Assembly (NCBI GenBank): GCA_031254335.1
Contig: JAIRUP010000013.1
Location: 1 to 32,653, forward strand
From: Rickettsiales bacterium
Lineage (GTDB): Bacteria > Pseudomonadota > Alphaproteobacteria > Rs-D84
Reading direction: 5' to 3'
Length of the DNA: 32,653 nucleotides
Every line of letters starts with the position of its first letter. Within the stretch, counting starts at the first letter, position 1. The translations under genes and the position numbers were made by a program. The notes under the pieces were generated by a model that worked only from the letters and a program-made list of their open reading frames with translations, had not been told where the DNA came from and made no database searches. Of this stretch, positions 525 through 32,430 are shown one piece after another.

Positions 525-803
525 ACCTGCTAACCCCACCCGTGAACATGCTTTGCATGTTCCGGGGCCCGGGGCGCAGGCCTTATGACCTGGATGGTCG
601 GGTTAAATCCGACCATGACAATTATGCCGGGATTCCCCGGTCAAGCCGTGGAATGACAGATGATATTTTACAAAATGGGATGCCGACCAACGCCCGCATG
701 ACAAAGACCACCCCCGGCTTCCCACCCACGACCTGCACTTCGCCCCGCTCGTTCTGTCGCGGGACCCGGGCCGCCGACCCATCCATAGGAGGGGAACTTA
801 ATA
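525..803. repeat. Cluster of short palindromic repeats in the 355-813 gap
   Basis: Apart from the structured element, this gene-free stretch is made of dispersed repeats. A hairpin GAACATG/CATGTTC lies at about 544-561. A 'cctgg...tcggg...cccga...atgaca' palindrome is at 586-620. A 'ggattccccgg...' palindrome with one arm decayed is at 626-658. A longer repeat ending in 'aggaggggaactta' (about 709-803) recurs at 18196-18250. The phrase 'gaccaacgcccg' (about 684) and the phrase 'taacctgctaac' (about 525) both recur after ffh at 32388-32430. No gene is supported in this stretch. Confidence 0.65.
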
Positions 804-13498: not shown

Positions 13499-13540
13499 GC
13501 CGGGATTCCCCGGTCTCGCTTTGCTCGCCGGGGAATGACA
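13499..13540. repeat. Palindromic repeat, class II (gattccccgg type)
   Basis: The hairpin arms GATTCCCCGG and CCGGGGAATG enclose a loop 'tctcgctttgctcg' and end in 'atgaca'. Other class II copies lie at 626-658, 25665-25691, 31278-31306 and 32357-32386. The repeat fills most of the 13457-13542 gap between convergent genes. Confidence 0.85.
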
Positions 13541-27369: not shown

Positions 27370-27427
27370 GAGTCGCTTATGGCGACAGTTTATTACCTGG
27401 GTCCTCGGGTCAAGCCCGAGGATGACA
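27370..27427. repeat. Composite repeat: gtcgc plus class I palindrome
   Basis: GTCGC/GCGAC (27372-27387) followed by a class I copy with arms CCTCGGG/CCCGAGG (27390-27427), between the CYTH gene and the uvrA promoter. Confidence 0.85.
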
Positions 27428-27440
27428 TATTAGAAGGGGC

Positions 27441-27468
27441 TTGATTTTTGGGAAAATTGCGCTAGTCT
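27441..27468 (+). promoter_or_regulatory. Probable uvrA promoter
   Basis: TTGATT (27441-27446), a 16-base spacer and TAGTCT (27463-27468), eight bases before ATG 27477. There is no ribosome binding site upstream of the ATG, so the transcript may be leaderless. The match to consensus is moderate. No LexA-type operator is evident. Confidence 0.4.
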
Positions 27469-27476
27469 TAAAGACT

Positions 27477-30416
27477 ATGGCTAAAACAGTTAAAAAAACA
27501 TTAAAGAACAAAAAAGAGTCGGCTTCGCCGACGGTTTCCGTGCAATCTGGGATTCCGGCCTCCGCCGGAATGACAAAGGGGAAGGCGGCGCGCGGGACGA
27601 CAGATGTCAAATATATCTCAATCCGGGGGGCGAGGGAGAACAACCTTAAAAACCTTGACATCGATATTCCGAAAAACCAGCTGGTCGTCATAACCGGCGT
27701 GTCCGGCAGCGGCAAATCTTCGCTCGCTTTCGACACCATTTACGCCGAGGGGCAGAGGCGTTATGTCGAGAGCCTTTCGTCCTATGCGCGCCAATTCCTC
27801 GACATGCAAAAGAAGCCTGAATTGGATTCTATCGAAGGCCTTGCGCCCGCGATTTCCATCGAGCAAAAAACGACATCCCACAATCCGCGTTCCACCGTAG
27901 GGACGGTGACGGAGATTTACGATTACATGCGTCTGCTTTGGGCGCGCATCGGCATTCCGCATTCGCCGGTTACAGGCAAACCGATTTCAAGCCAGACCGT
28001 GCAGCAGATGGCCGACCAGACCATGGCTTTGCCCGCCGGCACCAAGATTTTCATCATGGCACCCTTGGTCCGCGAACGAAAGGGCGAATACAAAAAGGAA
28101 CTCGCATTTTTGGCGAAGCAGGGATTCCGCCGCGCCATCATCGACGGCAAACTTATAGACGACATTACCGCCGCGCCGTCCTTGGATAAAAACAAGAAGC
28201 ACAATATTTTCGTAATCGTCGACCGCATGGTCGTCGCCGCCGACATGCGCGAGCGGCTGACCGCTTCGTTAGAGGCCTCGTTCCGGCTGGTTCCGAACAT
28301 CGTCATCGTCCGCCGTCTTGACACCGACGAGGACATTTTATTTTCTTCCATTTTCGCATGTCCCGAGTCCGGGTTCTCGTTGCCCGCAATCGAACCAAAA
28401 ATGTTTTCGTTCAACGCGCCCGCGGGGGCCTGCCCGGAATGCAGCGGCCTTGGCGTCCTTTATAAAATGTCGCCGGAACTTGTCATCCCCAACCCGACCC
28501 TCACCATTCGCGGCGGCGCAATCGCCCCATGGTCGCGCGGCGGCATGCTGACCCAATACGAACACATCATCGAGGCCATGGCGCGCGCTTTCAATATTCC
28601 GCTTTCCAAACCGTGGAAGTCCTTATCTTCAGCCCATCAGGACATGATTCTTTTCGGCACGGGCGAGGTCGCCCTGGACCTGAACTGGAACGGATACGAA
28701 TATTCCAAACCGTTCGAGGGAGTAATCCCGAATCTTGAACGCCGATACAAGGAATCCGATTCCGCATTCATGAAATACGAATTGGAAAAATACCAGACGC
28801 AGACCCGGTGCCAGATGTGCGGCGGAAAAAGACTTGGCGTGCAGGCACTTTGCGTCAAAGTCGCGGGCTTTGATATTTCCGAGGCGACAGGGATGCCAAT
28901 AGTCCGCGCAATCGAATGGTTCGGAGGCCTTTCCGCGAAACTTCCGAAATCGTCCGCCACCATCGCCGCGCCGATATTGCGCGAGATTACCGACCGCCTG
29001 AATTTTTTGGCGAATGTCGGCCTTGGGTATCTGACGCTTGACCGAACCGCCGGGACCCTGTCGGGCGGCGAGTCGCAGCGGATAAGGCTTGCGTCGCAAA
29101 TCGGGTCGGGGTTAAGCGGCGTGCTTTATGTCCTGGACGAGCCGTCAATCGGACTGCACCAGCGCGACAATGAGCGGCTTCTTAAAACCCTTTATTCCCT
29201 GCGCGACAAGGACAATTCCCTGATTGTCGTCGAGCATGACGAGGACACCATGCGCGCCGCCGACTGGCTTATCGATATCGGTCCCGGCGCGGGCGCGCAG
29301 GGCGGGCATATCGTGTCGCAAGGCAAACCCGCCGCCGTCATCGCCGACAAAGGCTCGCTTACAGGGCAATATTTATCCGGCGCGAAAAAGATTCCCGTGC
29401 CGAAGCGCAGGCGCAACGGTTCAGGCGAATCCATCAAAATCATCGGCGCGGCCGAGAACAACCTTAAAAACATCGACGCGGAAATTCCGCTTGGAAAATT
29501 CGTTTGCATAACCGGCGTTTCCGGCAGCGGCAAATCCACGCTGATAACCGACACTTTATATCCCGCCTGCATGCGCCATATTTACGGCTCTAAAATTCGG
29601 GCCGGGAAACACAAGACCATCGCGGGGCTTGAACACATCGACAAGGTCGTCGACATCGACCAGTCGCCCATCGGGCGCAGTCCGCGCAGCAATCCCGCGA
29701 CCTATACCGGGCTTTGGAATCCCATCCGCGAATTCTTCGCCGCTTTGCCCGTCGCGCGCGCCCGCGGCTACGCGCCCGGACGGTTTTCGTTCAATGTGAA
29801 GGGCGGACGGTGCGAGGCCTGCCAGGGCGACGGCGTCAAGCGAATCGAGATGCATTTCATGGCCGATGTCTATGTCGAATGCGATGTCTGCAAGGGCCGA
29901 CGCTTCAACCGCGACACTTTGGAAATAAAATACAACGAAAAAAATATCGCCGATGTCCTGGAATTAAGCGTGTTCGACGCATATAAGTTCTTCGCCAATG
30001 TTCCCGCGATACGGAAACGCTTGGAGAAACTGCGCGAGGTCGGCCTTGATTACATTTCGCTTGGGCAGTCCAGCTTGGAGCTGTCAGGAGGCGAGGCGCA
30101 GCGCGTGAAACTTGCGAAAGAGCTGGCGCATGTTTCCACCGGGCGGACGCTTTATATCTTGGACGAGCCGACGACGGGCCTCCATTTCGCCGATGTGGAA
30201 ATGCTGCTGGAATCGCTTCACAAGCTGGTGGATTCGGGCAACACCGTCGTCGTCATCGAGCATAATTTGGAAGTCATAAAGACCGCCGACCATATCATCG
30301 ATTTGGGGCCGGAGGGGGGCGACGCGGGCGGACGGATTATCGCCGCCGGCACGCCGGAAGAGGTCGCGAAGAACAAAGAGTCGGAGACAGCGAGATTCTT
30401 GAAAAGATACTTATGA
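27477..30416 (+). CDS. uvrA: UvrABC excinuclease subunit A
   Basis: A 979-residue nucleotide-excision-repair damage sensor with two ABC ATPase halves. The first Walker A is at about 73 (GVSGSGKSS) and the first signature is [18 protein letters not shown]. The second Walker A is at about 679 (GVSGSGKST) and the second signature is [15 protein letters not shown]. Zinc-binding motifs include [22 protein letters not shown] and CDVCKGRR. The usual protein starts close to 'I-x-I-x-G-A-R-x-x-N-L'; here that motif ([12 protein letters not shown]) is preceded by about 45 extra residues, including ESASPTVS and [11 protein letters not shown], encoded by two palindromic repeats. ATG 27477 is my choice; ATG 27570 at the end of the second repeat would give a near-canonical protein. 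Confidence 0.96.
27515..27577. repeat. Two palindromic repeats in the 5' part of uvrA
   Basis: GTCGGC/GCCGAC (27517-27533) followed by a class III copy with arms ATTCCGGC/GCCGGAAT (27550-27573), ending in ATGACA. Both are open in the uvrA frame. Confidence 0.8.
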
Positions 30417-30716
30417 TGAAACAGCTTTCTTCAAGGGCGCGAGGACTTCCTTCGTGTCGTCGTCGGATTCGTTGTCATAGATATAAAACTTTTCCACCCC
30501 GACAAGGCGATGGTATTCGAGCCATTCCTTGAAATACGCGCCTTCGTTCTTGGCGATGGCGCAAACGGCCAGCTTGTGCGGAAATTTCAGCTTCGGTTCC
30601 AGCATAAGCGCGCAGACGGTTTTGAGCGGGCCGAATCTAAGAATATTTCGGACTCGAACCCTTGCGGGTTTATAAGGGATAAGGCAACATATTATATTTA
30701 TAAAAAGTTTTTTCAT
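30411..30716 (-). pseudogene. N-terminal remnant of a glycosyltransferase (GT92/GT2-like)
   Basis: A 101-residue frame starting at ATG 30716 with GGCGGA upstream. It contains LAVCAIAKNEGAYFKEWLEY and FYIYDNESDDDTKEVLAPLK, the N-terminal signature of bacterial glycosyltransferases with 'A-I-x-K-N-E...E-W...H...Y-D-N-x-S'. Those proteins are usually about 250-350 residues; here the frame ends after the first nucleotide-binding section. Its TAA overlaps the last Leu codon of the convergent uvrA, so the uvrA end was probably joined into the old gene. It lacks the donor-binding and catalytic parts. A run of 14 C lies 68-81 bases upstream of the start. Confidence 0.7.
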
Positions 30717-30783
30717 TTTTATCCGCCCCCTTGCCGTATGAACAAACCTGTGCGAGCAACGGCACATTTTCCTAGGCAGTCTA

Positions 30784-30797
30784 CCCCCCCCCCCCCC
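30784..30797. repeat. Fourteen-base C tract
   Basis: Fourteen consecutive C on the plus strand, upstream of the glycosyltransferase remnant and about 215 bases before ffh. Tracts this long are prone to slippage. A downstream phrase 'tgcaaggggaaagtt' resembles the one next to the G9 tract at 9806-9814. Confidence 0.85.
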
Positions 30798-30877
30798 GTC
30801 AATAAAATGCAAGGGGAAAGTTAAATAATTGAAAATAAAGGTTGCAAATTTTATTTTCTGAGTAATAATGAATTCAT

Positions 30878-31012: not shown

Positions 31013-32338
31013 ATGTTCGATGTGCTTACAAAAAGATTGAATTCGGCGTTTGCGAAAATCAAAGGCAAGCTCACCGAGAATGTGTTGGACGACGCACTTT
31101 CGGAGATAAAAATCGCACTTTTAGAGTCCGATGTCGCTTTATCGGTGGTTAAGAAAATATTAGCTGGTATCAAAGAGAAATCTGTCGGAATTAAAGTAAT
31201 CGCCGGCGTAAATGCCGGGGAGCAGATTGCGAAGCTGGTTTATGACGAATTGGTGGAAATTTTGGGCGGCGCGGCCGAGATTCCCCGGTTAAACCGGGGA
31301 ATGACAGATAAAAAAAGGACCGTCATATTGATGGCGGGGCTGCAAGGAACCGGCAAGACCACCAGCGCGGCAAAACTTGCAAAATGGTTCGCCGCGCAGG
31401 GCAAGACCGTTCTCTTGGCCTCCACCGATATTTATCGCCCGGCGGCCAAAGAACAACTTCTTATGTTAGCCGACCGGGCAGGGGTTTCGTCCCTTCCCAT
31501 CATTCCGGGCGAGCCGCCTATTGACACCGCCCGGCGCGCCATTGCTTCATCCGAAGACATCATCATAATCGACACCGCCGGGCGAACCCAAATCGACTCC
31601 GCGCTTATGGACGAGCTTAAATCCATCAAGGCCGCCGTCCGTCCCGACGAAGTCATGCTTACCGCCGACGCCATGATGGGGCAGACTTCGGTCGATGTCG
31701 CCCGCGAATTCAATTCCGCCGTCGGCCTTACCGGCATAATCCTGACCCGCGCGGATTCCGACGCCAATGCGGGCGTCGCGCTTTCCATGAAATACGAGAC
31801 CGGCGCGCCAATCATTTTTACCGGCATTGGCGAGGGTTTGGACGCGCTTGAACAGTTCCATCCCGACCGCATCGCCAGCCGCATTCTTGACATGGGCGAT
31901 GTCGTGAGTTTGGTCGAAAAGGCCCAGGCGAACATCGACGAGGCGGACGCAAAAAAGCTGACCGAGAAGATGTTCAGCGGCCAGTTCGACTTGTCCGACA
32001 TGCTGTCCCAGATTCGCCAAATCAAGAGGCTGGGGTCCCTTGGGGGCATAATGAAGATGCTTCCCGGCATTGGAAAATTATCAGCCGGCATCAAAGACAA
32101 AATCAACGATTCCAACTTCGGAAAACAAGAGGCCATCATACTTTCCATGACCCCGCGCGAGCGGGCCAACCCGGACATCATTTTCGCCAGCCGGAAGCAG
32201 CGCATCGCGAAAGGCGCGGGCGCGACCATGCGCGATGTCGAGCAGCTGCTTGGCAATTATACGAAGATGAAGTCGCAGATGAAGCAGCTGCAATCCATGG
32301 GCGGGATGGCGGGGCTTATGGATATGCTTAAAAAGTAA
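31013..32338 (+). CDS. ffh: Signal recognition particle GTPase Ffh with repeat-encoded N-G linker
   Basis: A 441-residue GTPase that binds signal sequences and delivers ribosomes to the membrane with FtsY. The N domain spans 1-85 and the G domain has G1 GLQGTGKTTSAAKL, DIYRPAAKEQL and DTAGRTQID. The Met-rich M domain starts at about 325 (FSGQFDLSDMLSQIRQIKRL) and ends with MKQLQSMGGMAGLMDMLKK. The start at 31013 gives the standard MFDVLTKRLNSAF with AGAAGGG upstream. Residues about 89-99 (EIPRLNRGMTD), exactly the N-G domain linker, are encoded by a class II palindromic repeat; usual sequences have a short 'G-K-P-P'-like linker there. All GTPase motifs are intact. Confidence 0.96.
   Translation: MFDVLTKRLNSAFAKIKGKLTENVLDDALSEIKIALLESDVALSVVKKILAGIKEKSVGIKVIAGVNAGEQIAKLVYDELVEILGGAAEIPRLNRGMTDKKRTVILMAGLQGTGKTTSAAKLAKWFAAQGKTVLLASTDIYRPAAKEQLLMLADRAGVSSLPIIPGEPPIDTARRAIASSEDIIIIDTAGRTQIDSALMDELKSIKAAVRPDEVMLTADAMMGQTSVDVAREFNSAVGLTGIILTRADSDANAGVALSMKYETGAPIIFTGIGEGLDALEQFHPDRIASRILDMGDVVSLVEKAQANIDEADAKKLTEKMFSGQFDLSDMLSQIRQIKRLGSLGGIMKMLPGIGKLSAGIKDKINDSNFGKQEAIILSMTPRERANPDIIFASRKQRIAKGAGATMRDVEQLLGNYTKMKSQMKQLQSMGGMAGLMDMLKK
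31278..31306. repeat. Palindromic repeat, class II, inserted in ffh
   Basis: Arms ATTCCCCGG/CCGGGGAAT around 'ttaaa', ending in 'atgaca'. It is as intact as the intergenic copies and keeps the reading frame. Confidence 0.9.
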
Positions 32339-32430
32339 GAAGGAAGAAGTGCGTCCGGGATTCCCCGGTCAAGCCGGGGAATGACAATAACCTGCTAACG
32401 CAGGACTTATATTCAGACCAACGCCCGAAT
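32337..32430. repeat. Repeat cluster downstream of ffh
   Basis: AG-rich unit (32337-32350), class II palindrome with arms ATTCCCCGG/CCGGGGAAT (32357-32386), a small CCTGC/GCAGG hairpin (32391-32404) and 'gaccaacgcccgaatgacaa' (about 32417). The last two parts also occur in the 525-710 cluster. Confidence 0.75.

Follow-up and report, generated by a model that had tools for sequence, protein, structure and literature searches.

The SRP GTPase gene ffh, normally essential in bacteria, carries a perfect palindrome between its N and G domains in the stretch of DNA analysed here (the window, 32,653 nucleotides), raising the question of how such a sequence entered this gene and whether it does anything there. 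The window comes from a metagenome-assembled, reduced genome of a gut bacterium, a draft of 749,938 bases (~0.75 Mb) in 14 contigs that is 92.8% complete. The answer that we favour, with a probability of about 0.86, is that a copy of a dispersed REP inserted into ffh in this lineage and was tolerated in a relaxed linker, most likely without effect.

A palindrome in frame within ffh

The product of the gene is recognised by its Pfam domains SRP54_N (residues 5-80), SRP54 (103-292) and SRP_SPB (324-423), and by its match to E. coli Ffh 2xxa (phmmer, E=8e-110). The relevant features of the gene are as follows.

31013..32338, plus strand: ffh, encoding the SRP GTPase Ffh (441 aa)
31271..31306, plus strand: the REP copy as inserted, GCGGCCGAG plus the 27-nt core, shared by dispersed copies and lacking from three same-genus Ffh
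31280..31302, plus strand: perfect inverted repeat ATTCCCCGGTT/AACCGGGGAAT, an RNA hairpin of -17.2 kcal/mol
31303..31306, plus strand: GACA, reading on the minus strand as TGTC, the unpaired tag of REPs of the CGTC/TGTC superfamily
31337..31360, plus strand: P loop GLQGTGKT (G1 motif), beginning at residue 109

The preliminary description had reported an intact palindrome at 31278-31306, immediately before the GTP-binding motif. The palindrome is indeed intact and in frame: 31280-31306 reads ATTCCCCGGTTAAACCGGGGAATGACA, a 27-nt palindromic core that forms a perfect 11-bp inverted repeat about one base or, as a hairpin, a stem of 9 bp and a loop of 5 nt. Since other copies also have GCGGCCGAG upstream, the repeat-like stretch begins somewhat earlier, at 31271, and covers 36 nt, exactly 12 codons (A87-T98), with the peptide AAEIPRLNRGMT. 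Helix N4 precedes the insert and strand 1 of the G domain follows it; the order relative to the GTP-binding motif is as described, but "immediately" is loose, since the P loop begins 11 residues after T98. Upstream of ffh, an ORF fragment on the minus strand that resembles a glycosyltransferase (30411-30812) carries at its start a run of about 14 C (30784-30797), possibly a phase-variable tract or an assembly edge.

A dispersed repeat of the CGTC/TGTC superfamily

The preliminary description had called the palindrome a repeat, and this holds for the whole genome. Three copies occur in the window at <=3 mismatches, with none expected from shuffled sequences, while the core pattern matches at 20 places in the genome and the looser ATTCC-N8..20-GGAATGAC at 34, each against 0 for its control (the pattern reversed). 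Comparison of the copies gives a common stretch of about 33-37 nt (gcggccgRG plus the core) with conserved flanks GCCGRG...GACAATT, and copies with an 8-bp stem are also present in this genome. Most copies lie between genes and some lie within unrelated genes; those in the window, besides the one in ffh, are listed below.

632..658, plus strand: third REP copy of the ffh-insert subfamily, a pattern match
13505..13540, plus strand: intergenic REP-like palindrome, long loop
25668..25691, plus strand: REP-like palindrome (TACCCGGTCAAGCCGGGTATGACA) near an ORF start, peptide YPVKPGMT
27552..27575, plus strand: 8-bp-stem REP (ATTCCGGCCTCCGCCGGAATGACA) within the uvrA N-terminal extension, encoding GIPASAGMT
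32360..32386, plus strand: second REP copy, intergenic, 21 nt past the ffh stop codon

The few copies within proteins mostly translate as IPxxxxGMT on one strand or VIPxxxxGIS on the other. Two interrupt a Pfam domain, namely FtsJ/RlmE (rlmE/ftsJ, residue about 108) and QueH (queH, residue about 147, just ahead of a conserved C-G-C stretch), and further copies occupy the N-terminal extension of UvrA or stand in the end or leader parts of several other proteins. With at least two other recognised genes carrying a copy inside a Pfam domain, ffh is therefore not special. The uvrA N-terminal extension (window 27400-27580) and a TatB-like ORF (L052) have a longer peptide in common, and the REP in this extension thus appears to move together with another short palindrome (GTCGGCTTCGCCGAC).

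The CGTC/TGTC REP superfamily is defined by a CGTC, TGTC or CCTC tag, an 8-9 bp stem opening with complementary A and T, and a 4-5 nt loop; its members are concentrated in alphaproteobacteria, partly inside genes, and lack a dedicated transposase (Di Nocera et al. 2013, PMC3733652). The ffh copy has each of these structural features, namely the TGTC tag (GACA at 31303-31306, read from the minus strand) next to the stem, a 9-bp stem ATTCCCCGG/CCGGGGAAT whose first pairs are A-T and T-A, and the minus-strand loop TTTAA, which is CTTGA in most copies of the subfamily. Judged by these features, the ffh palindrome belongs to this superfamily, as one copy of a non-autonomous repeat that is dispersed in the genome; because its tail and the scarcity of dimers fit less well, it is classified at superfamily level. 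A Y1 transposase of the RAYT type was considered as mobiliser and rejected: PF01797 has no match at E<=0.001 in the 92.8% complete draft, and among 40 genomes of the family it occurs in four, without any apparent relation to how many repeats a genome has. This is consistent with the published statement on CGTC REPs and a dedicated transposase (PMC3733652).

Insertion into a linker of variable length

Comparison of ffh among close relatives, which the preliminary description had proposed as a check, supports its suggestion of an insertion, specific to this lineage. All three same-genus Ffh examined lack the insert. Measured between the conserved LGG and (V/I)ILMAG, the linker has 17 aa in the window Ffh versus 9 in the nearest protein (86% identical) and 13 and 12 in the other two. 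The insert was thus probably gained in the window's lineage after its split from the known same-genus relatives, which is the most economical reading. The window linker has a net gain of 24 nt over that of genome G002, whereas the repeat-like stretch is 36 nt, and because the linker has diverged, neither a clean empty site nor a target duplication can be read. The other part of that suggestion, that the recipient gene is essential, needs a caveat: the GTPase domain of Ffh is absent from sister genera of the same family.

The linker itself is unusually variable in this order. Unrelated bacterial Ffh have 13 aa in 24 of 27 cases and 14 aa in the other three, versus 8-33 aa in the 30 Ffh from this order and family (the window Ffh among them); constraint on the linker therefore looks relaxed here. 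The 29 relatives mostly have linkers that are shorter than that of the window (8-13 aa) and non-palindromic, and only three are longer (18, 26 and 33 aa), so the equally long, non-palindromic linkers that would have spoken against insertion are not the rule. In genome G001 (L023) the linker holds a copy of another low-copy dispersed repeat, CCTACGCCCTTTGGGCTACGG, found in three places of that genome at <=2 mismatches, and in G026 (L043) it holds a tandem palindrome pair, GGCGTCTTTCTATGAAAGACGCC, that occurs nowhere else in that genome. Such linkers suggest repeated colonisation of this site by mobile repeats.

Taken together, the course of events would be as follows. A non-autonomous CGTC/TGTC REP would have been carried into ffh by a mobilisation event after the split from the known same-genus relatives, landing at the protein surface, in the linker that joins helix N4 to G-domain strand 1 and tolerates changes in length. 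It would have survived there because its length is a multiple of three, its frame (AEIPxxxxGMT) is open and the linker is tolerant, and the 12 encoded residues would most likely only lengthen a flexible loop and be neutral.

Structure, hairpin stability and other explanations

AlphaFold2 gives the window Ffh a mean pLDDT of 75, with residues 91-100 below 50 in a loop between helix 68-84 and strand 103-108, and with averages of 84-94 in the blocks of 10 residues from 101 to 240. The inserted residues are accordingly predicted to be an unstructured loop.

The strongest alternative, itself highly improbable, is one that the preliminary description had allowed: selection acting on the DNA or RNA would keep the hairpin in ffh. 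Translational pausing between the N and G domains would be an example. A perfect stem could in principle also result from selection, and the 11-bp inverted repeat is perfect and its hairpin is stable (-17.2 kcal/mol, z -3.3, with 0 of 200 shuffles equally stable). However, the intergenic copy that follows ffh folds as stably, so this stability belongs to the repeat and not to ffh; moreover, about 34 similar hairpins lie mostly between genes or in unrelated genes, and same-genus Ffh do without one. Selection of the hairpin in ffh was therefore dropped as an explanation.

Less probable again is an adaptive peptide, with the insert altering the regulation of the SRP GTPase through N-G coupling. 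Its position between the two domains fits this idea, as does an N-G interface unlike that of other bacteria: in the window's genus (g1), ALLEADV is changed to ALLESDV and DARGG to DANAG (window) or DSSAG, at window residues about 34-43 and 244-261. Given the departure from DARGG, N-G coupling may indeed be altered in this genus, a point that also counts against the favoured reading. But these motifs are changed in each of the four same-genus genomes, whether the insert is there or not, and the insert falls in residues predicted to be disordered, in a linker ranging from 8 to 33 aa among relatives, which also speaks against the role in coupling N-domain movement to nucleotide state that had been ascribed to the linker. 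An assembly or binning artefact is the least probable of all, for although a 14-contig, 92.8% complete draft is open to misjoins at repeats, this repeat is only 36 nt long, Ffh continues on both flanks in a single open frame, and uvrA lies upstream of ffh just as in relatives. The insertion of a dispersed REP thus remains the preferred explanation, and it is probably an ordinary, neutral case of a known repeat type.

Ffh reduced to its M domain in sister genera

The relatives also yielded a side finding that is probably more important than the insertion. In a search of 183 genomes of the family, an Ffh with the GTPase part was found only in genera g1, g2, g4, g8, g9 and g11, while about 150 genomes match only window-Ffh residues about 300-441, nearly all of them in g10 and the remainder in g3, g5, g6, g7 and g12. 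Most of the M-only ORFs that were read begin with MFGFGKKK and have 163-176 aa; one is longer.

L163-L166, L189-L201 and L207-L219: stand-alone Ffh M domain loci, in genera g3, g5, g6, g7, g10 and g12

Among 40 family genomes, the profile PF00448, which also catches FtsY, exceeds its cut-off in 18, each from one of the six genera with a GTPase part, and in none of 21 genomes from g3, g5, g6, g7, g10, g12 and g13, several of which are 98-100% complete and one of which (G035) is a single contig; a control was detected in 14 of 14 genomes. With no SRP GTPase domain, these 21 genomes therefore have no FtsY either, and 19 of them have the M-domain family PF02978. FtsY was likewise not found in the window's own 92.8% complete draft, probably because of an assembly gap, and it is present in the three same-genus genomes.

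Of the 29 M-only loci read, among which three pairs represent one gene each, 25 have uvrA upstream, at a distance of no more than about 1 kb and in the same orientation. Since uvrA is also upstream in the window, the M-only gene is most simply the ffh orthologue after loss of its 5' two thirds. A tree of M domains places the M-only proteins together inside the family, as a single group (100/100) with a long branch. Among 26 aligned M proteins, S378 is replaced by A in 25, R394 by A in all 26, and G401 by T, K or others, at columns where full-length Ffh, 30 of them bacterial and 15 from the family, show no variation. These columns align to the SMT...SRK.RIA.GSG region of E. coli Ffh, which we take to be a 4.5S RNA contact, and the changed residues are thus putative SRP-RNA contacts. 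Rfam SRP RNA models, which are insensitive here, matched below the gathering score in five of 40 genomes, none of them M-only. In chloroplasts and mitochondria, mutation of such motifs has been linked to the absence of an SRP RNA, and the mitochondrial protein MAP67 is related to the M domain only (PMC8321541). No report of a bacterial M-only Ffh was found in the part of the literature covered by our search.

Within this one family of reduced alphaproteobacteria, Ffh therefore ranges from the intact protein, by way of forms whose N-G linkers are relaxed, to an M domain in genomes that lack the GTPases. This natural series makes a role of the SRP M domain without GTP, and possibly without RNA, testable. 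A tentative and rather doubtful extension is that the N-G linker, variable and repeat-bearing, marks the beginning of a family-wide relaxation of SRP GTPase coupling, ending in sister genera with the loss of the GTPase domain and FtsY and with a stand-alone M domain, at the same locus, that possibly works without SRP RNA, like MAP67. As for the insertion itself, it extends the list of genes with REP-type palindromes to an essential GTPase and shows what kind of site tolerates them.

Comparison with known repeats

The ffh repeat is closest to the CGTC REPs. It shares with CGTC-3 and CGTC-4 the 9-bp stem, the 5-nt loop, the A-T and T-A first pairs and the TGTC variant of the tag, and with CGTC REPs in general an alphaproteobacterial host, dispersal, some intragenic copies and the lack of a dedicated transposase (PMC3733652). 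It differs in its tail, which is CYC (CTC or CCC, then GGC) rather than CCA, a superfamily consensus that holds for most repeats and not all, and in that its 34 dispersed copies are almost all single, whereas those of the superfamily are predominantly head-to-head dimers. An insertion in ffh is not mentioned in the sections of their description covered here (PMC3733652). The superfamily takes in dRS3 and two Rickettsia elements, RPE-4 (CGTC-4) and RPE-6 (CGTC-1) (PMC3733652). Like these two, the repeat here is a short palindrome that lies in frame in protein genes of a reduced alphaproteobacterium; unlike them, it belongs to a different host lineage, and the likeness rests on their published equivalence to CGTC-4 and CGTC-1 (PMC3733652), the longer Rickettsia element RPE-1 being a different element. 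The RAYT-mobilised GTAG REPs and REPINs are likewise short, palindromic, non-autonomous and dispersed, but the repeat here carries a TGTC tag in place of GTAG, in a genome with no Y1 transposase domain detected.
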